A DNA stretch of 47,772 nucleotides from Candidatus Eisenbacteria bacterium (GTDB lineage: Bacteria; Eisenbacteria; RBG-16-71-46; CAIMUX01; JAHJDP01), in assembly GCA_018831195.1 (NCBI GenBank), contig JAHJDP010000116.1, positions 1 through 47,772 on the forward strand. Direction: 5' to 3'. Positions 342-25,770 of this stretch are shown here, one piece after another. The translations under genes and the position numbers were made by a program. The first letter of the stretch is position 1, and the number at the start of each line of letters is the position of its first letter. Below the pieces are notes generated by a model. The model had not been told where the DNA came from, did not search any database, and saw only the letters and a program-made list of their open reading frames with translations.

Positions 342-2846
342 ATGCGTGTCGCCACGATAATAGCCATGATGGTTTCTTTGGCCTTGGGAATTCTGGCAGC
401 AGGTCCCATCGGGTTGAGGGCCGAAACAGCCACACCGTTTGAGATGGAGAGGGTCTGCCATAATTGGCTATCCTTCATGGTTGAACAGAATGGAAGCTGG
501 GCGGGTTCCGAAAATCCGGGTATCGTGGATGCTCAGGATATTGTCGTTGATGGAGTGGTGCTGGCCCGCTGTTACTCAATCGCACCTATGGGCTATATCA
601 TTGTTCCAATTCTCAAAGAAATGATGCCGATCAAAGCTTATTCCATGGACAGCCATTTTGACGTGCATCAGACGGTTGGATTCCCTCAACTCCTAAAAGA
701 GCGTCTTCACATTTACACAAAGACATTTTCTGATAAATATGGAAATCTCGAAGCGATTCAGCCGCTTTCGGGGGATATCGTTTTTAATCCCGCGCAGAAG
801 GAGCGGTGGGCTCAATGCTCAGCAGATCCGGCGCTCTTTCTCAATACTTTGGCCACAGATGGCTCCAGTTCAAGAAGCACAGTGGGTCCGCTGCTATCAA
901 CGGTTTGGCATCAGGGATCACCCTATAATAACTTGTGTCCTGATGGTGACGGCGGGCGATGTATTGTTGGATGTGTCTCCACTGCAGTCTCCCAAGTTAT
1001 GAAATATTTTGAATGGCCTCCTTCCGGTATCGGCGATCACTCCTACTATTGGCCCGGTGATACATCCTGTGGTGGATCAACACCCGGTGAAACGCTCTAT
1101 GCGGACTTCTCTGATCCGTATGCATGGGAGAATATGCCCAATGGTTGTTTTCCCATCTGCGGGGAGATAGCCCAAGATGCCTTGGCCGAGCTTTGCTACG
1201 AAGTCGCTGTCGCTTTTAATATGAACTTTGGGAATTGCGGATCCGGAGCCTATACGAGTGAAGCCATCACGATTATGCCGGGCTACTTTCTCTATGATAA
1301 TTCAATCAATCAGCAATATCGGGGATCTTACACAGCGGAAGCCTGGTTTGAAATGATTAAGTATGAGATCAACAACGGGCGGCCCATGCTCTATAGCTTC
1401 AATTCAGGGACGAGCGGCCATGCCGTCGTTTGCGATGGCTGGTTGGATGAGCTTGGTTTCAGTCAGTATCATATCAATTACGGGTGGGGGGATGAACATA
1501 CCGCCTGGTACACGGTTGATGATATCTTCGGCGCAACCGGAGGTGAAAGAATTATCCGGAATATCTCTCCTGAACCCATATCTGTGACACTTTCGGCCGA
1601 TGGTCTCGGTGACTATCCGACAATCCAGGAAGCTGTTTCCGATCTCTACGGCGGCTGCATTATTGAGCTCGCGGACGGCGTCTATTCCGGCGACGGAAAC
1701 AGAGATATTGTCCTTGCCGGGAAGAGCCTTACGATCCGGTCCCAGAGTGGAGACCCCGCGGCTTGTATCATCGATTGCGAAGGCACCGTGGAAAACCCGC
1801 ATCGGGGTCTTGTCCTCAGTATGGGTGAGGATTCCGAATGCGTTATTGAAAATATAACAATCACAAACGGATATGATGGCAGCGGGGGCGGCGGGGTCAG
1901 CATTGATGGTATCGCCACACCTGTTTTGTCGGGGTGTGTTTTCTCGAATAACACGAGTTCTTGGGGCGGGGCTGTATATGTTAACAACGGCGCCAATCCG
2001 ACATTCAATAACTGCCGCTTCACGCAGAATTCCGCTACCAACAGCGGTGGAGCGCTTCGCATTAGAAACTCAGATGCATCATTAAATTATTGTGTCTTTG
2101 ACGGGAACTCCACAGACGGCAAAGGCGGCGCTCTCGAATGCCGGAGCTCCTCTCCTGATATCAGCTACTGCACATTTTTGCAAAATTCCGCAGTATCCGA
2201 CGGCGGCGGCATCCACCTTTTGACATCCTCGTCACCGGTCATCACCAACACAATCATTGCATTGGGAACGGCCGGAAATGCTGTGCACTGTGCAGATACA
2301 GGTTCTGTTCCCACCTTCAGCTGTTGCGATATTTTTAGCAATGCCGGCGGTCCCGGTGCTGCGGGTTCCTGGATCGGAACAAACAACAATATCGCCCTGG
2401 AACCCCTCTTCTGCGATATGGCCGGCGGGGATTTTCAACAGTGCGCTGATTCCCCTTGCGCATCGGGCCAAAGCCCGTGCGGGATGCAGATCGGGGCTTA
2501 TGATGTGGGATGCTCTTCATGCGGCGCAGGGGCCGATGTTGAGCCGATCTCACTTCCCAATAGACTCACCTTGTCCCCCTGCGCGCCCAATCCCTTCGGC
2601 ACTCTTACAGAGATCACCTACTCATTGCCGGATGGCGCCGGCCTGCATCAGATGGTCCTGAGCATCTATGGTCCCTCTGGGCGTCTGGTCCGGACACTGA
2701 TCAATTCCAAACGTTCTGCAGGCATTTATCATGTCTCCTGGGACGGCACAGATCAAACGGGGAAGCCGGTCGCAAATGGCGTTTATTTCTATCAATTGCG
2801 ATGGAATGATAGGAGTGAAACGCGGCGGGTGCTCCTCATCAAATAA
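342..2846 (+). CDS. Secreted C10 (streptopain-like) cysteine peptidase with beta-helix and FlgD-like C-terminal domain
   Basis: The frame is open from 204, but the ATG at 342 is preceded directly by GGAGGAAG and begins a signal peptide (MRVATIIAMMVSLALG...), giving 834 residues. The peptidase part carries the C10 motif GCVSTA with catalytic Cys211, then SGHAVVCDGW with His360 and an NYGWGDE segment, all typical of streptopain-family papain-fold enzymes. From about residue 410 a right-handed beta-helix begins with DGLGDYPTIQEA and contains repeated GGA(V/L) turns. The last ~90 residues (PNPFG...YSLP...GIYHVSWDG...NGVYFYQL) match the FlgD-like domain common at the ends of secreted FCB-group proteins, often linked to surface sorting. 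Likely role: secreted or surface-bound protein degradation. A perfect terminator follows, so it is probably monocistronic. The family call is firm; the substrate is unknown. Confidence 0.9.
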   Translation: MRVATIIAMMVSLALGILAAGPIGLRAETATPFEMERVCHNWLSFMVEQNGSWAGSENPGIVDAQDIVVDGVVLARCYSIAPMGYIIVPILKEMMPIKAYSMDSHFDVHQTVGFPQLLKERLHIYTKTFSDKYGNLEAIQPLSGDIVFNPAQKERWAQCSADPALFLNTLATDGSSSRSTVGPLLSTVWHQGSPYNNLCPDGDGGRCIVGCVSTAVSQVMKYFEWPPSGIGDHSYYWPGDTSCGGSTPGETLYADFSDPYAWENMPNGCFPICGEIAQDALAELCYEVAVAFNMNFGNCGSGAYTSEAITIMPGYFLYDNSINQQYRGSYTAEAWFEMIKYEINNGRPMLYSFNSGTSGHAVVCDGWLDELGFSQYHINYGWGDEHTAWYTVDDIFGATGGERIIRNISPEPISVTLSADGLGDYPTIQEAVSDLYGGCIIELADGVYSGDGNRDIVLAGKSLTIRSQSGDPAACIIDCEGTVENPHRGLVLSMGEDSECVIENITITNGYDGSGGGGVSIDGIATPVLSGCVFSNNTSSWGGAVYVNNGANPTFNNCRFTQNSATNSGGALRIRNSDASLNYCVFDGNSTDGKGGALECRSSSPDISYCTFLQNSAVSDGGGIHLLTSSSPVITNTIIALGTAGNAVHCADTGSVPTFSCCDIFSNAGGPGAAGSWIGTNNNIALEPLFCDMAGGDFQQCADSPCASGQSPCGMQIGAYDVGCSSCGAGADVEPISLPNRLTLSPCAPNPFGTLTEITYSLPDGAGLHQMVLSIYGPSGRLVRTLINSKRSAGIYHVSWDGTDQTGKPVANGVYFYQLRWNDRSETRRVLLIK

Positions 2847-2876
2847 TCGGCGCGTCATGCATATATGGTTCTATTG

Positions 2877-2915
2877 GACCGGGATCCTCTTCATTGAGGA
2901 TCCCGGTCATTTTTT
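2877..2915 (+). terminator. Rho-independent terminator of the C10 peptidase gene
   Basis: A perfect 13-bp stem (2877-2889 with 2896-2908) closes a 6-nt loop (TTCATT) and is followed by ATTTTTT. It lies 30 nt after the stop at 2846 and separates the two beta-helix genes into distinct transcripts. Confidence 0.93.
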
Positions 2916-3028
2916 GGATGTCCTGGCCTGGTGCTGTTCTGTATGGTAAAATATGCTCACTGCGGATGACGTGCGTGTTAGAAAGGGTCTGGAAGCGTCG
3001 CAAGAAATAATAGGGGGGAGGCATCTGT

Positions 3029-4327
3029 ATGAAAGTTCAGGTGGTGCACACTATCTGTGTCGCTCTTTTGATTTTTGCCATGACTTTTCCGGTCTCGGCG
3101 ACTATCTACACTATCAGCCCGGATGGACTGGGTGATTATGCCACAATCCAAGAAGCCATCGATGCTGCCGCGGATGAGGATACGATATTCCTGACGGATG
3201 GCATTTTTATGGGGGAAGGGAATCGGGATATCGTCTATCTCGGAAAAGGTATCACAGTCGCTTCGCAATCCGGGAGCGCCGAATCTTGTATTCTGGACTG
3301 TGAAAGCACCGAAACCGAACCACACTGCGGGTGTCTATTCTTTGCGGAAGATTTGAGCGCTGTCCTATCAGGTATTACCATAAGAAACGGCTGGGGCGCC
3401 TTAGATGACGAGGGTGGTGGCATCAAGTGCGCCGACGGCGCCACACCCAGCATCAATTTCTGCATTTTCACTGAAAATCAGAATAGCGCGGTATTTTGTG
3501 AGAGCCAAAGCCATCCGGTCTTCACGGAGTGTCTCTTTACGCAAAATCAGGGCATTAGGGGTGGTGGGGTCTATATTCGTGGAGCCAATGGAACTTTCAA
3601 TGACTGTGAGTTCATAGGAAACACCAGCACAAGTGGTGGCGGCGTCTATGGCCATGCCGCGGACCCCAGCTTTACTCGCTGTCTATTCGAAGAAAATATC
3701 GCTGAGATCGGAGGGGCCGCCGGTTTTATTTACGGCGGTGGAGGACATTTTGTCGACTGTACATTTTTGCAGAACGAGGCGCATCAAAGTAGCGCCTTGG
3801 ACGGTCATGGGATGATCCATACGAGCTTTGAGGGGTGTCTGTTTCTGGGGAATTCCAATGAATCTTGGGGCATGATTTCCATGACAAAGAGCTCAGATAT
3901 GAGATTCACAAATTGTACCTTTTGGGATAATGAAGCGCCCGGCGCCGTTCTCTTCTTCGAGGAGCAACAAGCATACTTGGACAATACGATCATCGCCTTC
4001 AATAGAATGGGCACGGCCGTTACCGGGGAGGGAACCGCGACGCTCAACTGCTGCGACATCTACGGGAATGAGGGAGGCGATTGGGTTGGCGGGATAGCCT
4101 GGCAATATGGCATTAATGGGAATATTTCTTCTGATCCCATCTTCTGCGATCCTGAGATAGCCGACCTCCATATCCGCGCCGATTCACACTGCGCGCCTTT
4201 CTCACCTCCAAATGAGGAATGCGACCTTATCGGCGCCTTGCCCGTCGGCTGCTATCCGCCGACAGCCACCGGATCCGCGAGTGGGATAACGACCTGGGGG
4301 CGCATCAAGGCGGTGTATCAGGAATAG
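3029..4327 (+). CDS. Secreted right-handed beta-helix repeat protein
   Basis: The 432-residue product starts at an ATG behind a GGGGGGAGG ribosome site and has a clear signal peptide ending near VSA (residue 24). The mature part opens with DGLGDYATIQEAID and then GNRDIV, closely resembling the start of the beta-helix in the upstream C10 peptidase, and continues with pectate-lyase-type short repeats (GGGV, NCTFWDN, CxFxxN). It has no FlgD-like tail and no recognisable catalytic residues, so polysaccharide binding or degradation cannot be claimed. It probably acts outside the cell or at the surface. The shared domain suggests that the two neighbours arose by duplication and domain loss or gain. 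Confidence 0.82.
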   Translation: MKVQVVHTICVALLIFAMTFPVSATIYTISPDGLGDYATIQEAIDAAADEDTIFLTDGIFMGEGNRDIVYLGKGITVASQSGSAESCILDCESTETEPHCGCLFFAEDLSAVLSGITIRNGWGALDDEGGGIKCADGATPSINFCIFTENQNSAVFCESQSHPVFTECLFTQNQGIRGGGVYIRGANGTFNDCEFIGNTSTSGGGVYGHAADPSFTRCLFEENIAEIGGAAGFIYGGGGHFVDCTFLQNEAHQSSALDGHGMIHTSFEGCLFLGNSNESWGMISMTKSSDMRFTNCTFWDNEAPGAVLFFEEQQAYLDNTIIAFNRMGTAVTGEGTATLNCCDIYGNEGGDWVGGIAWQYGINGNISSDPIFCDPEIADLHIRADSHCAPFSPPNEECDLIGALPVGCYPPTATGSASGITTWGRIKAVYQE

Positions 4328-4353
4328 GAGGCGGGACAAAGGCAGGGAGACTG

Positions 4354-18476: not shown

Positions 18477-20222
18477 ATGGGAGATCAACGGCCCAATTCA
18501 GGACCGATGCCAGAACCCATTCGGGACCCAATGAAGGAAAATGAACGCCCTCTGGAAAAGAAGAATCCCGCCCCCAAGGAAGGAACGAGTCGCCTCGAAA
18601 GGGAGTGGCTTACCGATCCATCCCCAACTGAAATCCGTCATGCATCCCACGATTTAAATGTTAAACAAACCGAATCAACTGAAGCGGGATCTTCTTCTCG
18701 AGAAAAAAGACTGGAAAAGCTTCTCTCTATTACCGGCCGCATCTCACAAGTTTTGGAACTCACACCGCTGCTCGATCAGATACTGGATGCCGTTCTAGAG
18801 ATATCGAATTGCCAACAAGGTATATTGCTGTTAGCCAATTCCGACGGCCGGTTGGAATTTGTAGCGGGCCGCGATAGGAACCACAAAAACTTGACGTCGG
18901 ACGGAGTCCAAATTTCTCATTCTCTGGCCACTCAAGCCTTCGATACAAGCCGCCCTGTTTGGGAAGACAATCTCCAGAAGGGCGGAAGGATTGACTACAA
19001 GCCGGGTGAGAGTATCTCGCGTTTATCACTCGAAACTGTCATTTGTGTGCCCCTGGTCGGACCGCATGGGACAGTGGGAGTCCTTTATCTCGATAGTCAA
19101 CTGCCCGGCCAGCTCGAAAAAAATGAGGACTTGTCACTGCTGAAATCCTTTGCTTCACAGGCAACCATTGCCATTGAAAATGCAAGGCTCCACAGCCAGA
19201 CGGCAACCCAGCGCGATTCACTCGCACTTGAGAATTCGGTACTCCGTCGCGAAGTCGAGCAAATCTGTACCTTTGACAATATCATCGGGCAGAGTGCTCC
19301 GATGAAACAATTATTCCATGTTATGGAGCGTGTTTTAGAGGTTTCGACCCCCGTCTTAATCATTGGTGACACGGGGACCGGTAAGGAACTTATTGCAAAG
19401 GCGCTTCATTACCATGGATCCAGGGCCGGCGGACCATTTGTTCCGGCGAACTGCGGCGCCATGAGTGACACCCTAATGTGGAGCACTCTCTTTGGTCATC
19501 GCAGAGGTTCTTTTACAGGAGCGATTGAAGATAAGGCGGGGTTGTTCGAATTGGCAAATCAGGGAAGCCTGTTTCTTGATGAAATCGGCGAACTGCCATT
19601 GAGCATACAGGCGGCATTGCTGCGGGCGCTGCAGGACGGTGTTATTACACGTCTCGGGGAGGAGCAGCGCCCGCGGAAGGTTGATACTCGTCTACTCTAT
19701 GCAACGCATCGCAATTTGGAGGATATGGTAGCGCAAGGAAAGTTCAGAGAAGATCTCTATTACCGTCTTAATGTTATCAAGTTGACCGTTCCCCCGCTTC
19801 GCGAAAGGGGAGAGGATCTTCGACTCCTTTGTGAAAATATCCATCAGAGATTGTCCATATCGATGAAGCGGCAAATCGGTCCGATTCCGCCGGAAACTTA
19901 TCGGCTGCTCTATTCCTACGCCTGGCCGGGCAACGTGCGGGAATTGGAGAATAAGCTCGAGAGGGCTGCTTTGCTGGCGGATCCTGGTAGTCCCCTCGGC
20001 CCCCACCTTTTCCCCGAACTGAAGGGGTCCCTGGCGAGTACCGTGGGGGATTATCAAGGAGAGACCCTGCGCGAGAAACTAGAGAGCGCAGAAAGAGGTA
20101 TCCTGGAAGATGAACTCTCAAAGGTCGAATGGAACATCTCGAATTGCGCCCGTCATCTCCGATGCACACGGCAACATCTGCATAATCGAATTAGAAAGCT
20201 AAAGATAAACCGCCCACGATAG
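18477..20222 (+). CDS. GAF-domain sigma-54-dependent transcriptional activator (enhancer-binding protein)
   Basis: The 581-residue protein has a charged, probably disordered N-terminus (1-75), a GAF sensor domain (about 84-240), a short coiled linker, and a sigma-54 AAA+ domain. Walker A GDTGTGKE starts at Gly297, the sigma-54 contact loop is GSFTGA at 344-349 (a Ser variant of the usual GAFTGA), and Walker B LFLDEIGE includes Asp368-Glu369. The sensor/arginine region KFREDLYYRLNV and PWPGNVRELEN-type stretch follow. A Fis-type helix-turn-helix ends the protein (NISNCARHLRCTRQHLHNRI). It hydrolyses ATP to open sigma-54 promoters in response to a GAF ligand. Three candidate sigma-54 promoters lie within 1.5 kb downstream, so local targets are likely. 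A GGGGAGG ribosome site precedes the ATG. Confidence 0.95.
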   Translation: MGDQRPNSGPMPEPIRDPMKENERPLEKKNPAPKEGTSRLEREWLTDPSPTEIRHASHDLNVKQTESTEAGSSSREKRLEKLLSITGRISQVLELTPLLDQILDAVLEISNCQQGILLLANSDGRLEFVAGRDRNHKNLTSDGVQISHSLATQAFDTSRPVWEDNLQKGGRIDYKPGESISRLSLETVICVPLVGPHGTVGVLYLDSQLPGQLEKNEDLSLLKSFASQATIAIENARLHSQTATQRDSLALENSVLRREVEQICTFDNIIGQSAPMKQLFHVMERVLEVSTPVLIIGDTGTGKELIAKALHYHGSRAGGPFVPANCGAMSDTLMWSTLFGHRRGSFTGAIEDKAGLFELANQGSLFLDEIGELPLSIQAALLRALQDGVITRLGEEQRPRKVDTRLLYATHRNLEDMVAQGKFREDLYYRLNVIKLTVPPLRERGEDLRLLCENIHQRLSISMKRQIGPIPPETYRLLYSYAWPGNVRELENKLERAALLADPGSPLGPHLFPELKGSLASTVGDYQGETLREKLESAERGILEDELSKVEWNISNCARHLRCTRQHLHNRIRKLKINRPR

Positions 20223-20455: not shown

Positions 20456-20475
20456 GTGTCTATATATAGAGACAC
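20456..20475. promoter_or_regulatory. Candidate upstream activating sequence for micro-gene 1
   Basis: GTGTCT and AGACAC form 6-bp inverted arms around an 8-nt AT core. The half-site AGAGACA begins 113 nt upstream of the -24 GG of promoter 1. The same AGAGACA begins 112 nt upstream of the -24 GG of promoter 2 (20984-20990). The position suits an enhancer-binding protein. Confidence 0.5.
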
Positions 20476-20580
20476 CATCATTATTTTCCAAAATTGAACC
20501 AATAATTTCATCCTCCCCTAATGTATTGAATATCAGGGCGATACAGCTATTTTGCGAATCGCAATGCATTATGCAATTCT

Positions 20581-20594
20581 GGCATGCATTCTGC
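20581..20594 (+). promoter_or_regulatory. Sigma-54 (-24/-12) promoter of micro-gene 1
   Basis: CTGGCATGCATTCTGCAT has GG at 20581-20582 and GC at 20593-20594, separated by exactly 10 nt as sigma-54 requires. The predicted start is near 20605. An identical core is found at 21096-21109. Confidence 0.8.
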
Positions 20595-20605
20595 ATTTCT
20601 ATTAA

Positions 20606-20699
20606 ATCGAGAGCGGGTTCAGGTTAAGAACTCCTCACATCACCCGGACTCGAATCCGGAATGGCGGAGAAGAACTCAGATCAAAAAGGAGATTTAACC
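20606..20699 (+). promoter_or_regulatory. Structured leader of micro-gene 1
   Basis: The ~95-nt leader has hairpin I, GGGTTC/GAACTC (20615-20620 with 20628-20633, 7-nt loop), and hairpin II, CCGGA/TCCGG (20644-20648 with 20655-20659). Both recur at the same places in the leader of micro-gene 2. AAGGAG lies about 9 nt before the ATG. Confidence 0.6.
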
Positions 20700-20780
20700 A
20701 TGTTATTTCACATTGATGTCCCGATCCTCATCAGCCTTCTGACAGCTATCTACTTCGGTCGCGCGGGATGGACTTCCTAA
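20700..20780 (+). CDS. Sigma-54-controlled hydrophobic micropeptide 1 (26 aa)
   Basis: A 26-codon frame begins at ATG 20700 behind AAGGAG. The peptide has a polar start (MLFH), IDVPIL, a hydrophobic core (ISLLTAIYF) and ends GRAGWTS. It could form one transmembrane or amphipathic helix. It matches the peptide at 21218-21292 in 16 of 24 aligned positions, including an unbroken YFGRAGW. Six of the identical residues use different codons, which favours selection on protein over DNA. It has its own sigma-54 promoter, leader and terminator, so it is a stand-alone gene. Function unknown; a small membrane regulator, a signal peptide or a type I toxin-like peptide are possible. Confidence 0.75.
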   Translation: MLFHIDVPILISLLTAIYFGRAGWTS

Positions 20781-20813
20781 GTCGCCGATGCCAAGGCTGG
20801 TCAAGGTAAAATA

Positions 20814-20864
20814 ACTCCCGGAGTCGAGAACGGTCACAAAGCCAAGTCGATTTCGGGAGTTTTT
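20814..20864 (+). terminator. Terminator of micro-gene 1
   Basis: Arms 20814-20827 and 20847-20860 pair over 14 bp (two G.U pairs) around a 19-nt loop, followed by TTTT. The layout is the same as in the second unit. Confidence 0.85.
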
Positions 20865-21033
20865 ATGTCCTTCTAGCGAAGAGGCCGTCAAAAAGAGACG
20901 ACAAAGAGAGTATTACGGGTGACAACTTGTAATGTGTTATTATTTAGCACGTTAGAGAATATTCCCAAAATACGTAAATAAATAGAGACAGTCCATTCAT
21001 CCTTCCAGAATTCCGCTCAATCGAGACATATTC

Positions 21034-21045
21034 ATAACTTGTTAT
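21034..21045. promoter_or_regulatory. ATAAC-TT-GTTAT inverted repeat upstream of promoter 2
   Basis: The 5-bp arms lie about 50 nt before the -24 element of promoter 2. The sequence CTTGTTAT recurs (as ATAACAAG) in the 21630-21653 repeat before promoter 3, so this may be a shared operator. The rest of the 20865-21095 gap is AT-rich and includes the AGAGACA half-site at 20984-20990. Confidence 0.4.
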
Positions 21046-21095
21046 AGGACAACAGGATCTGAATATTTATTATCCATCATGCAAATTGCAATTCC

Positions 21096-21109
21096 GGCAT
21101 GCATTCTGC
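21096..21109 (+). promoter_or_regulatory. Sigma-54 (-24/-12) promoter of micro-gene 2
   Basis: CCGGCATGCATTCTGCAA has GG at 21096-21097 and GC at 21108-21109 with 10 nt between. The core GGCATGCATTCTGC is identical to promoter 1. The predicted start is near 21120. Confidence 0.8.
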
Positions 21110-21120
21110 AATTCTATTAG

Positions 21121-21217
21121 ATCGAGAGTGGGTTCGGGTCGAGAACTCCTCTCACTTACCGGACTCAGGTCCGGTGAAGCGAAGCGGTAAACGAGAATTG
21201 AGGAGGGAGGTTTGACC
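21121..21217 (+). promoter_or_regulatory. Structured leader of micro-gene 2
   Basis: Hairpin I, GGGTTC/GAACTC (21130-21135 with 21143-21148), matches unit 1. Hairpin II is CCGGAC/GTCCGG (21159-21164 with 21169-21174), one pair longer than in unit 1. GAGGAGGGAGG precedes the ATG. Confidence 0.6.
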
Positions 21218-21292
21218 ATGTTTCTACAGATTGATGTCACGATCCTACTGGGTCTGCTGATGGCAATGTACTTTGGTCGCGCCGGCTGGTAA
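21218..21292 (+). CDS. Sigma-54-controlled hydrophobic micropeptide 2 (24 aa)
   Basis: A 24-codon frame starts at ATG 21218, about 8 nt after a very strong GAGGAGGGAGG. The peptide reads MFLQ, IDVTIL, LGLLMAM, then YFGRAGW and stops. It is the paralogue of the 26-aa peptide 518 nt upstream, and lacks only its last two residues (TS). One Asp sits at the start of the hydrophobic core and one Arg near its end, as in many small inner-membrane peptides. It has its own sigma-54 promoter and a very stable terminator. Function unknown. Confidence 0.78.
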   Translation: MFLQIDVTILLGLLMAMYFGRAGW

Positions 21293-21326: not shown

Positions 21327-21379
21327 GCTCCCGGAATCGCAAGAAACGCACCAGCTATCACGCGATTCCGGGAGCTTTT
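21327..21379 (+). terminator. Terminator of micro-gene 2
   Basis: Arms 21327-21340 and 21362-21375 make a perfect 14-bp stem around a 21-nt loop, followed by TTTT. Compared with the first unit, several stem pairs differ but pairing is kept. Confidence 0.9.
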
Positions 21380-21443
21380 CATATCATGGCGGAGACAAGT
21401 GTCATCCCACCTCTGATCTTCTCGAGTTCTGCAGGTCAATAGG

Positions 21444-21473
21444 TCCCTCTGCGGGCTTAATGCCCCAGAGGGA
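21444..21473 (+). other. Stable hairpin between micro-gene 2 and the lipoprotein gene
   Basis: Arms 21444-21456 and 21462-21473 form 12 bp with one bulged C and a TTAAT loop; TCTATTTCG follows. It may be a second terminator or part of a small RNA. I find no credible open frame in this gap on either strand. Confidence 0.45.
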
Positions 21474-21629
21474 TCTATTTCGACCAATCTCCATATCTTC
21501 TTTAATTTATTCAAGATAGCGCCTCACTTCCTTAAAGCGCATGGGGCAATGACCCCAAAGTCGGGGATACGCCCAGACTGGAATTCTAAGGACTCCTGCA
21601 TCTATCAAGATGAACAAGTTTCCTAACAC

Positions 21630-21653: not shown

Positions 21654-21698
21654 TCTGGATTTTGATAGAAAATTAATTTAGACAGTGTCGCCACTTGT

Positions 21699-21712
21699 GG
21701 CACCCTCCCTGC
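21699..21712 (+). promoter_or_regulatory. Sigma-54 (-24/-12) promoter of the lipoprotein gene
   Basis: TGGCACCCTCCCTGCAT has GG at 21699-21700 and GC at 21711-21712 with 10 nt between, and keeps the TGGCAC consensus. The predicted start is near 21724, 29 nt before the ATG. A GCCAC/GTGGC inverted repeat overlaps the -24 box. Confidence 0.8.
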
Positions 21713-21752
21713 ATTTAGAAGGGCCAGTTGCTGCCAAATAGGGAGGTCAAAG

Positions 21753-21992
21753 ATGAACAAGAACGCAAGAAAGCTGGCCGAGCGGATCACCAAGTTTGCC
21801 TCACTACTCGCCTTGAGCGCCTTTGTCGTTCTATTTGTAGTGGGATGTGGCCAAAGCAGTATTACCTCTCCTGAGCCGGAGATGGGTTCATCGCAAAAGT
21901 CCTGGTCCGATCCCGGTTGCTCGGGCTCTGACGCCTCCTATGAGGAAGAGCCTCTGGACTTTGGAAAGGATAGAGGTGACGTTCAGGATTAA
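21753..21992 (+). CDS. Small lipoprotein (79 aa) under a sigma-54 promoter
   Basis: The protein has a basic N-region, a hydrophobic stretch (LLALSAFVVLFVVG) and a lipobox VVGC with Cys32 as the predicted lipidated residue. The mature 48 residues are acidic and rich in Ser, Glu and Asp, with one further Cys and no recognised domain. GGGAGG stands before the ATG. It is a monocistronic gene bounded by a sigma-54 promoter and a terminator. Being in the same regulatory group as the micropeptides, it may act with them at the envelope, but this is inference. Confidence 0.85.
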   Translation: MNKNARKLAERITKFASLLALSAFVVLFVVGCGQSSITSPEPEMGSSQKSWSDPGCSGSDASYEEEPLDFGKDRGDVQD

Positions 21993-22200: not shown

Positions 22201-25200
22201 ATGACAGAATCTCTGCTAAAGGTGCCGCGATACTCGATTCTGCGCCATGTGGGTTCCGGCGCCCATGCCGATGTTTTTCAGGCACGGGACCGGATCTCGG
22301 AGAAGATGGCGGCGCTGAAACTTCTGCGGCGCGACCGGTTCGGGACGCCGGAAGAAGATATCCTACAGCGGGAATATGAGCTTCTCCTGGATCTTCAGGA
22401 GCCGGCGCTGCCGGAAGTCTATGCCTTTCGGAGAAATGTCGACCTCCGGCCGGTCATCATCATGGAATGGATTGATGGAGAAAGCTTGGATCAAAAGAGC
22501 GAACCCCTTCCCTGGAATGAAACAACGCTCAATGCCCTCTACTCCCTGACCTCCGCCGTCTCGGCTCTGCACCGGCGGGGTTGGTCGCACCTCGATCTCA
22601 AACCGGCTAATATTGTCATCTCTTCTCAAAAGAGGGAAGAGACGGGGCGCACCCCTCTTCGCATTCTCGATGCCGGCCTCATGGCCTCGACAGGTCATTC
22701 GATTGAGCCCAGAGGCACCCCCGGCTATATCGCTCCCGAAATATTGAAAAGGGAAGGGTGGGATGAGCGGGCCGATCTCTTCTCTCTTGGAGGGATCTTC
22801 TATCAACTTCTGACGGGCCGGCCGGCCTTCGCCGGACCGGCGCTGGATGAGGTGATTGATCAAACACTTCGAGGAGCCTTTACCCCCCTTGAAATTTGTG
22901 AGCCGAGTCTCCCGCCCCCGCTCTGCCAGCTTGTCAACGGCCTACTGGATCCGGATCCTAAAAAACGACCTGGAAATGGGGCCGATGTTATCAATGTCTT
23001 GGAACGGCTTTCCGTTCTGGAGGGCTTGGATCCTCCCACCATTGTGCCGAATAGCTGGCAGCGCGAAAACGCCTTGCCCTGGCCGCCGATTCCCAGGCCC
23101 GAGACTCAAGAGATCGTCGATTCTCTGTCATCTGAGACAAAGGCATTGTTAAAAATCCTGCCCGTGACGGTGTCATCCGGATTGGGACGAGAGTCCTTCG
23201 CCCGTAATTTGGCCGACATCCTATCCATGGCCGGCTTTAACGCTTCTCTGCTGATGGGAGCCCAAGGACACTTTGCCTCTGCCAAAGAAGCCGACACAGC
23301 TCTCTGCGCCTTCTTTTCTCCCGCCGATTTGGGCGGCATCTCAGAACAGAGGAATCGCAAACAGTCACTGAATGGTTTTCTTTGGAATGAGTCACCGATT
23401 CTTGTTTGGGATTTGGGAACCACCCCTCCCGGCTGGCTCAATAAATGGCTCAATGATCTCGCTCTGGAACTGACATCCATCTCGGCGCATTCCGAGAAGG
23501 GGAGAGGCACTCCCAGCCTGGTTCTTCTATGCAGCCATATTGAGACGCCGGATATCCCACTTCGAACCGCTGACATCCAATCCTTTTCTCTCGCCCCTCT
23601 ATCCCCTGAAGCGCTGAGGTCATATACGGCGAGACACCTCTCTTCAGAACAGGATATTGAGAAGATCGTCAAACAATCTCAGGGCTATCCTGAAATTCTG
23701 GGTGGTCTTCTTGAAGCGAAGCGGCGGCACCAAACCACCATTACCGGTCTTTCAGACGACAAGATCGAAAGCCCCCTCAGCATTTTGCATGGCCTACTGG
23801 CCGCCCGAACAAGGATACTCTCTGATTCCTCAAGGAGAGCCCTCTCGATGCTTGAAATGGCTGGAATTCCATTGACCCTCGATCTTTGGGAGGAGTTATG
23901 TGAGGGGGGAAATCTGGATCTGCGGAGCATTTCAATCGAATTGCAAAATTTGGGTCTCATCGGATGCTCTTTGAAGGGCTGGGAGACGCATTATGCCGAT
24001 CTCATCGATCAGGGACGCTATCTTATCCGCTCTCCACGGAAAGAGGATCACATACGCATGGCATCCGTCCTAAAAAAGTTACAGAAGACGGATCAGGTTG
24101 AATATTGGAAGCCGATCATCGGTCATCTCCTGGCCGGGAAGGCCGCGGAAACGCCGAGAATGGGATTGGCGATGGCCATGCGGCTCTATCGAATGGGCAG
24201 GGAGGATGAAGCGCTGCACATCCTGAGGCGAATAGACGCAGATCTTGATCAGAGGGATCTGTCACGTCACTTATGGACACAAAGACTTCACTATAGGATC
24301 TCATGGGAAGTAGGGCCGCAAGGCAGGCAGTTAGAAACAATATCGAATCTATCATTAAAGGATCCGATTGTTATTTCATTAAACTCCAGGGGGCTATCGG
24401 CGGAGGGGAGAACACAAGAAGCTTGGAATCAGCTGGCGGAGTACTCCTGTGATGAATATCCAGCTCCATTAAGAGCCTTCGTCCTGTGTGCGAAAGCTCT
24501 GGTTTCTTATTATGTCATGAGTTCAAGAGCCTTCTGCGATGAAGCCCTGAAGGCCCTTGAATCTTTTCCACCCAAGGGGATGGACGATCTCCGCGCACTG
24601 CTGTTACAGAGGATTGTCCAATCCGCTCTCTGGGATGGTGACGAGACATTGGCGACGGAATCGCTGGAGCAACTGAAATCCTTTAAATCCACATCCTACA
24701 AAAACCATGTTATACATACCATAAAAATTGCAACCGGCTATTACAACTATCACCATAATAATCTCGAGGAAGCATGGAAAGCCGCCTCGCAAGCGACAGA
24801 ATCGGCCAGGCGTACCGGTCGAGTGGATCGGTTGACGGTTGCCCTATCAAATCAAGCAAATATTGCGGCTCAAAGTGGGAAATGGGAGGAGGCGGTTAAA
24901 GCCAACAGGGAGTATCTGGCATTTGCACGCACCCTCAATCATATTGGCAAGCAAATTAATGCGCTCCGCAATTTATCTTTAAATAGACAAATTCAAGCTC
25001 TCTACGATTTGGCCATTGAGATGGGGGCGGAGGCCGTTGACTTAGCCAGGAAAACAAGTGACCGGGAAAGAAAGGTCGCCGTCCTTCCCGTGCTGGCCTC
25101 AGCCCTTGTTTTGGTTGGCCGCCGGAGCGAGGCCCATGCAGCGGCGACTGAGGCCCTGACGCTCCTCAAAGAAACAGACTATGATTTTGATCGAGCCATT

Positions 25201-25770
25201 GCGTTCGATGCCGCAGCCCGCGCCTCACTCGACCTCAAAGATGACGACCGGGAGATTGAGCCTGAACTTATGTTAAAGGCGTATGAAACCTTTGAAAAGG
25301 CGGGGATGTCTGATGTCGCAGCGGAGGTTGCATTGGAAATGGCTTGGGAGGAACTCCGGCTTGAGAACAATGCAGAGGCCCGAATCTGGATGGATCGTGC
25401 CGCCGATTTCCCACGCGACAAGGTCCCCCGGGTTGATATCTGGAAGGGTCTTGTCCTGGCGCGCTGGATGTCGACGACAGACCGATGGGATACTCAAGAA
25501 GGCCAAATGATTTGGAGTGATTTAAAGCGAATGATGACAGCAGCCAGAACATTGGGTTTCTATGAGCTCCTCTGGCGGCTGGAGTATGTCTCGGCGCACG
25601 CACGACTGACCCGGGGGGATCGTCCCACCGCCCTCAATGAACTGCGACAGGCCCAAAGAACTTTTAATCGAATCGTGGAGGGATTGAAGGTCCCCCAGAA
25701 CCGTCAGGGCTACCTGACCCGGCCCGATCAAAGAAGGTTTACGCAGTTGATCAAGACGCTGGGGCTCTAG
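22201..25770 (+). CDS. Serine/threonine protein kinase fused to a degenerate ATPase-like region and TPR array
   Basis: This 1189-residue protein begins with a Hanks-type kinase domain (about 10-270): glycine loop GSGAHADVF, Lys40, HLDLKPAN with Asp132 and Asn137, GYIAPE, and RADLFSLG. Two canonical motifs vary: HRD is HLD, and DFG is DAG (157-159), but the catalytic and metal-binding Asp and Lys residues remain, so activity is plausible. Residues ~300-600 resemble the STAND/AAA region of PknK-like kinases, but the expected P-loop is GLGRES rather than GxxGxGKS, so ATP binding there is doubtful. From about 620 the protein is helical with TPR-like repeats. It has its own promoter and operator. 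It may signal to the adjacent sigma-54 activator, by proximity only. Confidence 0.9.
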   Translation: MTESLLKVPRYSILRHVGSGAHADVFQARDRISEKMAALKLLRRDRFGTPEEDILQREYELLLDLQEPALPEVYAFRRNVDLRPVIIMEWIDGESLDQKSEPLPWNETTLNALYSLTSAVSALHRRGWSHLDLKPANIVISSQKREETGRTPLRILDAGLMASTGHSIEPRGTPGYIAPEILKREGWDERADLFSLGGIFYQLLTGRPAFAGPALDEVIDQTLRGAFTPLEICEPSLPPPLCQLVNGLLDPDPKKRPGNGADVINVLERLSVLEGLDPPTIVPNSWQRENALPWPPIPRPETQEIVDSLSSETKALLKILPVTVSSGLGRESFARNLADILSMAGFNASLLMGAQGHFASAKEADTALCAFFSPADLGGISEQRNRKQSLNGFLWNESPILVWDLGTTPPGWLNKWLNDLALELTSISAHSEKGRGTPSLVLLCSHIETPDIPLRTADIQSFSLAPLSPEALRSYTARHLSSEQDIEKIVKQSQGYPEILGGLLEAKRRHQTTITGLSDDKIESPLSILHGLLAARTRILSDSSRRALSMLEMAGIPLTLDLWEELCEGGNLDLRSISIELQNLGLIGCSLKGWETHYADLIDQGRYLIRSPRKEDHIRMASVLKKLQKTDQVEYWKPIIGHLLAGKAAETPRMGLAMAMRLYRMGREDEALHILRRIDADLDQRDLSRHLWTQRLHYRISWEVGPQGRQLETISNLSLKDPIVISLNSRGLSAEGRTQEAWNQLAEYSCDEYPAPLRAFVLCAKALVSYYVMSSRAFCDEALKALESFPPKGMDDLRALLLQRIVQSALWDGDETLATESLEQLKSFKSTSYKNHVIHTIKIATGYYNYHHNNLEEAWKAASQATESARRTGRVDRLTVALSNQANIAAQSGKWEEAVKANREYLAFARTLNHIGKQINALRNLSLNRQIQALYDLAIEMGAEAVDLARKTSDRERKVAVLPVLASALVLVGRRSEAHAAATEALTLLKETDYDFDRAIAFDAAARASLDLKDDDREIEPELMLKAYETFEKAGMSDVAAEVALEMAWEELRLENNAEARIWMDRAADFPRDKVPRVDIWKGLVLARWMSTTDRWDTQEGQMIWSDLKRMMTAARTLGFYELLWRLEYVSAHARLTRGDRPTALNELRQAQRTFNRIVEGLKVPQNRQGYLTRPDQRRFTQLIKTLGL

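Follow-up and report, generated by a model that had tools for sequence, protein, structure and literature searches.

What do the two very short tandem reading frames in the window (the whole 47,772-nucleotide stretch of DNA analysed here) encode, and what might their products do? The original prediction was that they are paralogous micro-genes below the usual gene-calling length, encoding hydrophobic peptides that share YFGRAGW, belong to no known family and recall either type I toxins or small membrane proteins.

Two micro-genes and their transcription units

Both frames were found on the forward strand, at 20700–20780 (26 aa, MLFHIDVPILISLLTAIYFGRAGWTS, ending GRAGWTS) and 21218–21292 (24 aa, MFLQIDVTILLGLLMAMYFGRAGW, ending GRAGW). 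As had been claimed, the two peptides were identical at 16/24 positions, six of the identical residues used different codons, and YFGRAGW was intact in both despite three third-base changes. The 18 base differences between the copies over 24 codons were distributed 4/1/13 over codon positions 1/2/3 (permutation P = 1.5e-4), and it is this concentration at third positions that indicates a translated frame for the window pair. Across 12 homologous micro-ORF pairs, the window pair among them, the differences were 29/11/71 by codon position (chi-square P = 7e-12). The codon test and the homologues described below support both frames as real, tandem genes shorter than the usual gene-calling length. 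Micro-gene 1 continues for two residues past its Trp, so that an exactly C-terminal Trp appears to be dispensable in this copy.

The duplication included whole units, with identities between copies 1 and 2 of 31/34 for the promoter, 66/95 for the leader, 54/72 for the ORF and 65/92 for the 3' region. The structured 5' leaders at 20605–20699 and 21120–21217 (both forward strand) contain the candidate pairings GGTTAA/TTAACC and GGTCGA/TTGACC respectively. The strong ribosome site predicted for each micro-gene was present (GGAG at 20688 for micro-gene 1), as was a terminator after each in the form of an intrinsic-terminator-like hairpin on the same strand, at 20810–20868 (inverted repeat I3, then a T run) and 21327–21383 (14-bp perfect inverted repeat I6 and a T-rich run). 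A further strong inverted repeat was observed at 21438–21479 (AATAGGTCCCTCTGCGG / CCCCAGAGGGATCTATT), in the stretch that separates micro-gene 2 from the lipoprotein-like ORF described below.

Each micro-gene also had its own promoter, as expected, but of a type that had been missed: a sigma-54 -24/-12 element rather than a sigma-70 promoter. These forward-strand elements lie at 20580–20595 (TGGCATGCATTCTGCA, 17.1 bits) and 21095–21110 (CGGCATGCATTCTGCA, 13.5 bits), and a third at 21698–21713 (TGGCACCCTCCCTGCA, 15.9 bits) precedes a 79-aa lipoprotein-like ORF at 21753–21992 (forward strand; lipobox VVGC). A candidate activator site, its function predicted, was located 5' of promoter 1 at 20456–20475 (GTGTCTATATATAGAGACAC), and its core ATATATAGAGACA at 20462 repeats at 20978 within a second candidate site 5' of promoter 2 (20978–20990, ATAAATAGAGACA); the spacing of 516 compares with a promoter spacing of 515.

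Upstream on the forward strand, at 18477–20222, is a gene for an enhancer-binding protein (EBP) with GAF, AAA (sigma-54 activator) and Fis domains by Pfam, whose orthologues adjoin homologous micro-genes in genomes G001, G002 and G012. This neighbouring protein is the probable activator of both window micro-genes. Downstream at 22201–25770 (forward strand), Pfam identified a Ser/Thr kinase with a C-terminal TPR region, possibly the sensor. Kinase genes are also present at the G001, G002 and G012 loci, with TPR confirmed in G001 and G012; within the order, a search with the kinase yielded numerous paralogues but not one close orthologue of full length.

A micropeptide family in the Eisenbacteria

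Searching relatives by DNA similarity or for the exact string YFGRAGW gave no match beyond the organism's own genome, owing to the divergence of the peptides, and a protein profile of two sequences had to be used. With this profile, made of the window peptides alone, the best non-self match was a micro-ORF on contig 41 of G002, a genome from another family of the same order (MIIGGAVLAGLLMLVNYGRAGW; E = 0.05 per genome). This ORF has a ribosome site and lies directly 3' of the EBP orthologue and of the kinase gene next to it. The cluster of EBP, micro-gene and kinase was also found in G001, where the micro-ORF MFFTLLLQLLAVVVAAMGRAGW is placed between EBP and lipoprotein genes with a sigma-54 element 87 nt upstream, and on contig 248 of G012, a member of a third family (f6), where the EBP was 41% identical over its full length. 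A second G012 locus, on contig 408, has a 249-aa gene, a micro-gene and a MASE9-HD-GYP gene. Three tandem copies were found on contig 52 of G002 and single copies in G007, G017 and G046. Homologous frames, whose absence from related genomes would have counted against the original prediction, were thus numerous. A profile of ten members scored the family loci at E = 3e-10 to 2e-4, values that are not independent because those loci supplied the profile rows.

A pattern scan of 84,980 species, which demanded Arg and GGAGG and would therefore miss Lys-tailed members, returned 61 stretches, most of which were not in frame or encoded no hydrophobic peptide; the Nitrospira match MFRLSTADLEKMFGRAGW is an example of those dropped. 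Filtering for in-frame hydrophobic peptides left only Eisenbacteria and Co_bin.215, which is G002, and added the micro-gene of G005. The latter is near a TPR-EBP fusion gene (L251:4985-7492, minus strand), in which an N-terminal TPR region is fused to the sigma-54 AAA domain.

Frames ending in G[RK]AGW and a stop were then collected across all 47 genomes of the class, and since the chance background of this pattern is sizeable, only in-frame micro-ORFs with a ribosome site, or lipoproteins with an HFS motif, were kept. An in-frame Lys-tail candidate on contig C2 of G046 (L311) was dropped as non-hydrophobic. About 42 micro-ORFs of 16–26 codons, often tandem, were obtained from 29 of the 47 genomes, counts that rest on incomplete metagenome assemblies. 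They share a hydrophobic or amphipathic N-terminal part and the G[RK]AGW end, which is encoded by 23 distinct codon strings; 39 of the 40 distinct peptides have a neutral or negatively charged N-part, and the tail is basic. The invariance of the tail is partly one of ascertainment because the later searches demanded it; the early profile search did not.

The micropeptide profile matched 25 genomes of the class, and its one match among 338 others is probably due to chance; neither micropeptides nor tailed lipoproteins were convincingly found in the 338 genomes outside the class. As originally suspected, the micropeptides matched no family in Pfam, NCBIfam or Rfam; apart from tRNAs the Rfam scan gave no match, including for the micropeptide transcripts, and a text search of the literature for GRAGW returned unrelated papers only. 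On these searches the family appears to be previously unrecorded and, as far as searched, restricted to the phylum Eisenbacteria, to which the genome of the window belongs.

In the 200 nt upstream, 13 of 42 micro-ORFs and 11 of 29 lipoproteins had a sigma-54 match scoring 12 bits or more, compared to 0.6% of random stretches. Tandem pairs ending in GKAGW were present in eight genomes of family f7, and the first copies in seven of the eight pairs carry TGGCACG-N4-CTGCT (17.5 bits); the second copies, 130–170 nt further on, probably share the transcript of the first. Three of these pairs (L335, L341, L343) are upstream of a Lon protease gene, and L335 and L343 have a dCache-HAMP histidine kinase gene on the side opposite Lon. 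An EBP gene was adjacent or nearby at the window, G001, G002, G005, G012 and f10 loci.

The f10 micro-ORFs encode 16–18 residues, mostly acidic and amphipathic (e.g. MDLLIEIVELFGKAGW), and no sigma-54 promoter could be recognized for them; the GG-N10-GC spacing of the -24/-12 promoter was present for the window copies and absent for the f10 members. The f10 ORFs examined are flanked by a conserved gene of roughly 250–280 aa on one side and a MASE9-like HD-GYP gene on the other, and a PspF-like EBP gene follows further downstream. Their ribosome-binding region is predicted to be paired, and the enclosing helix has compensatory changes. These ORFs (L247, L248, L249, L250, L254-L257) were also observed to be inside a long-range inverted repeat, GAGACCGGC...GCCGGTCTC, within which the motif GCGAAGCGGA recurs; the whole may be a structured RNA element in its own right.

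As a general function, a purely cis-acting role, whether as leader or in arrest, was set aside as unlikely, since several micro-genes, among them those of G005 and G007, have no recognized same-strand gene closely downstream. The short contig of the G007 micro-gene (L258) also carries a LanC-like gene fragment at 3–407 and a CHAT-domain protein gene at 2756–4330, both on the minus strand.

The shared tail on lipoproteins

About 30 lipoproteins with the same tail were found in 18 genomes of the class, typically with a signal peptide and lipobox and with the ending L.HFSxY..G[RK]AGW. HFS was invariant among 20 aligned lipoproteins, and a fixed-spacing pattern for the ending occurred in 14 of 47 genomes of the class and 0 of 338 others. 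Similarity to the ZU5 domain was weak, with 4 of 20 tailed lipoproteins matching at E up to 0.1; PF00791 was above the gathering score in an untailed lipoprotein of G002. A search of solved structures with the lipoprotein profile gave weak matches only, mostly to the signal-peptide region. ZU5-type lipoproteins are encoded downstream of the micro-gene in G001 and G002, and the lipoproteins at these EBP loci have HFS and lack the tail. The 79-aa lipoprotein-like ORF of the window has neither a ZU5 domain nor the tail, and no convincing ZU5 remnant was detected in it.

The window's own genome has two tailed lipoproteins, on contigs 19 and 23. The first (L253:6490-7461, minus strand; a 324-aa frame ending GRAGW) has two ZU5-like repeats, a sigma-54 element 49 nt 5' of its likely start and a MASE9-like membrane protein gene about 20 nt after its end. 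The second (L293:3018-3611, minus strand) ends ...HFSLYGGGRAGW and has a sigma-54 element 59 nt upstream. Proteins of G040 at L329 and L330 end in ...LPPGKAGW without the HFS motif, and the tail may therefore occur on further protein types.

The presence of the tail on both micropeptides and lipoproteins points to a common reader. The choice of Arg or Lys agrees between the two groups within f1-f3 and f6 (Arg) and f7 (Lys), which is weak evidence for such a reader because the agreement largely tracks clade and breaks down in G038 and, in part, in G040.

Possible functions and comparison with known systems

We tentatively favour, as a quite possible reading of the comparative sequence data, a sigma-54-induced regulon whose small membrane peptides present the tail that they have in common with lipoproteins, to be read by a common partner. 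An EBP, probably the neighbouring GAF-AAA-Fis protein, would activate both window genes through their sigma-54 promoters, and the adjacent Ser/Thr kinase-TPR protein would be a plausible sensor of the signal. The hydrophobic or short amphipathic N-part would reside in or on the cytoplasmic membrane and the tail would act as a docking or recognition signal for one common partner, so that the micropeptides would present it at the membrane when a signal arrives. They would then be small regulators or mimics of the tail, cooperating or competing with the lipoproteins that carry it. The simplest topology to assume is a membrane-inserted peptide whose tail faces the cytoplasm, the orientation predicted from the charge pattern by the positive-inside rule. 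The tail of a lipoprotein ends outside the cytoplasm, and therefore either the partner would meet it before export or this topology guess is wrong.

Since TPR domains are known to bind C-terminal peptides, one possible reader is the TPR region of the kinase; TPR candidates are the kinase-TPR proteins of the window, G001 and G012 and the TPR-EBP near the G005 gene. Others are the MASE9-like proteins encoded beside the f10 ORFs and, in the window's own genome, immediately behind a tailed lipoprotein. It is conceivable, at a somewhat lower level of confidence, that this represents a phylum-specific signalling or sorting system in which a dedicated partner reads G[RK]AGW on sigma-54-induced membrane micropeptides and secreted ZU5-like lipoproteins, for example a TPR kinase sensing unexported tails in the cytoplasm with the micropeptides setting the threshold.

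The tail might instead be a peptide signal, with cleavage of the micropeptide setting free its C-terminal end, for instance YFGRAGW, the lipoproteins freeing S-x-Y-x-x-G-[RK]-A-G-W by ZU5-type autocleavage at HF/S, and TPR or MASE9-type proteins as sensors. TPR kinase or TPR-EBP genes do lie near micro-genes, and a syntenic block includes a gene of the M50 protease class, to which Eep belongs; however, this M50-GT4-GT2-EBP block also exists without a micro-gene (G005), and the tail barely varies between genera, unlike typical pheromones. The invariant HFS is consistent with autocleavage, HF/S being the autocleavage motif of PIDD and Nup98 (PMC3210808), and bacterial ZU5 autopeptidases have been proposed (PMC3482391). 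Cleavage nevertheless remains a prediction given the weak ZU5 likeness, and the EBP-locus lipoproteins of G001 and G002 carry HFS without the tail, leaving a peptide signal unlikely overall. Nascent-chain arrest, in which a stall near the tail controls the downstream gene, would draw on the resemblance of [RK]AGW to SecM GIRAGP and the RAGP/RAPP motifs, with which it has the RAG core in common (PMC10951299, PMC10987492). In f10 and G012:C408 a MASE9-like HD-GYP gene follows the ORF, the lipoprotein on contig 19 (G000:C19) is similarly close to its MASE9-like neighbour, and the f10 leaders fold over the ribosome-binding region within the compensated helix. Against this, the A-site Pro of the R-A-[GP]-P core is absent, Lys replaces Arg in many copies, peptides of 16 residues are short and window copy 1 extends beyond Trp. 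The genes of the window, G005 and G007 are separate units, with terminators or no nearby same-strand gene, and so have no regulated downstream gene in the same transcript, an arrangement possible in f10; arrest is accordingly considered very unlikely.

If the peptides were accessory subunits of a single membrane enzyme or transporter, with the tail as an incidental contact site, their length and hydrophobicity, typical of small membrane subunits, would be accounted for. This too is rather improbable, as it leaves the same tail on lipoproteins unexplained and there is no constant membrane-protein neighbour, the contexts being EBP-kinase, TPR-EBP, MASE9-HD-GYP, histidine kinase with Lon, and ECF sigma factor. 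The least credible explanation is that of type I toxins, hydrophobic micropeptides silenced by a structured leader and antisense RNA. The genes are short, hydrophobic and tandem with a ribosome site within a structured leader, but they have sigma-54 promoters and an adjacent EBP, no antisense gene was recognized (Rfam scan, no match at the gathering threshold), what is conserved is the tail, found at the end of large lipoproteins as well, and the f10 forms are very short and mostly acidic. Of the two likenesses originally drawn, that to a small membrane protein fits and that to type I toxins gained no support. It had been overlooked that the promoters are of the sigma-54 type, that the genes are linked to an EBP, that the conserved element is the C-terminal G[RK]AGW and that this element also occurs on lipoproteins. 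The original observation stands and its interpretation is partly supported.

With members of as few as 16 codons, the family represents genes that annotation has probably overlooked and that occur in most of the genomes sampled from an uncultured phylum. It also offers an entry point to sigma-54 signalling in this phylum, which is rich in EBPs and Ser/Thr kinases. The shared tail ties the micropeptides to surface lipoproteins, and function becomes testable through G[RK]AGW binders. If the tail serves sorting, feedback or peptide signalling, it would represent a new kind of bacterial C-terminal code.

Several known systems resemble the regulon in part. SecM/RAPP arrest peptides share the RAG residues, whereas here Pro is absent, Lys is allowed and the genes form separate transcription units. 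SHP pheromones with Rgg (TPR) receptors likewise arise from short hydrophobic precursors, with a TPR protein and an M50-type protease gene in the vicinity; the present family differs in its sigma-54 promoters and EBP, in a tail constant across genera and in the tail on lipoproteins, and no Rgg-type HTH-TPR receptor was found beside the micro-genes, the neighbour being the kinase-TPR protein. ZU5/FIIND autoproteolytic proteins are comparable to the tailed lipoproteins in weak ZU5 similarity and the invariant HFS, but cleavage is only predicted here and the micropeptides have no such domain. The phage-shock (Psp) system also combines a sigma-54 EBP, of which the f10 loci have a PspF-like single-domain form, with small membrane products; here no PspA or PspC was seen, and the products are much shorter and share a C-terminal tail. 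PEP-CTERM, GlyGly-CTERM and LPXTG tags are similarly recurrent C-terminal motifs on many exported proteins, in contrast to which the present tail is of five residues only, has no helix and basic cluster after the motif, matches no NCBIfam model and is also found on free-standing micropeptides. Finally, in the LuxO-Qrr system an EBP activates paralogous small RNAs, and here too an EBP gene is beside paralogous short sigma-54 transcripts with terminators, but these transcripts carry a conserved reading frame.
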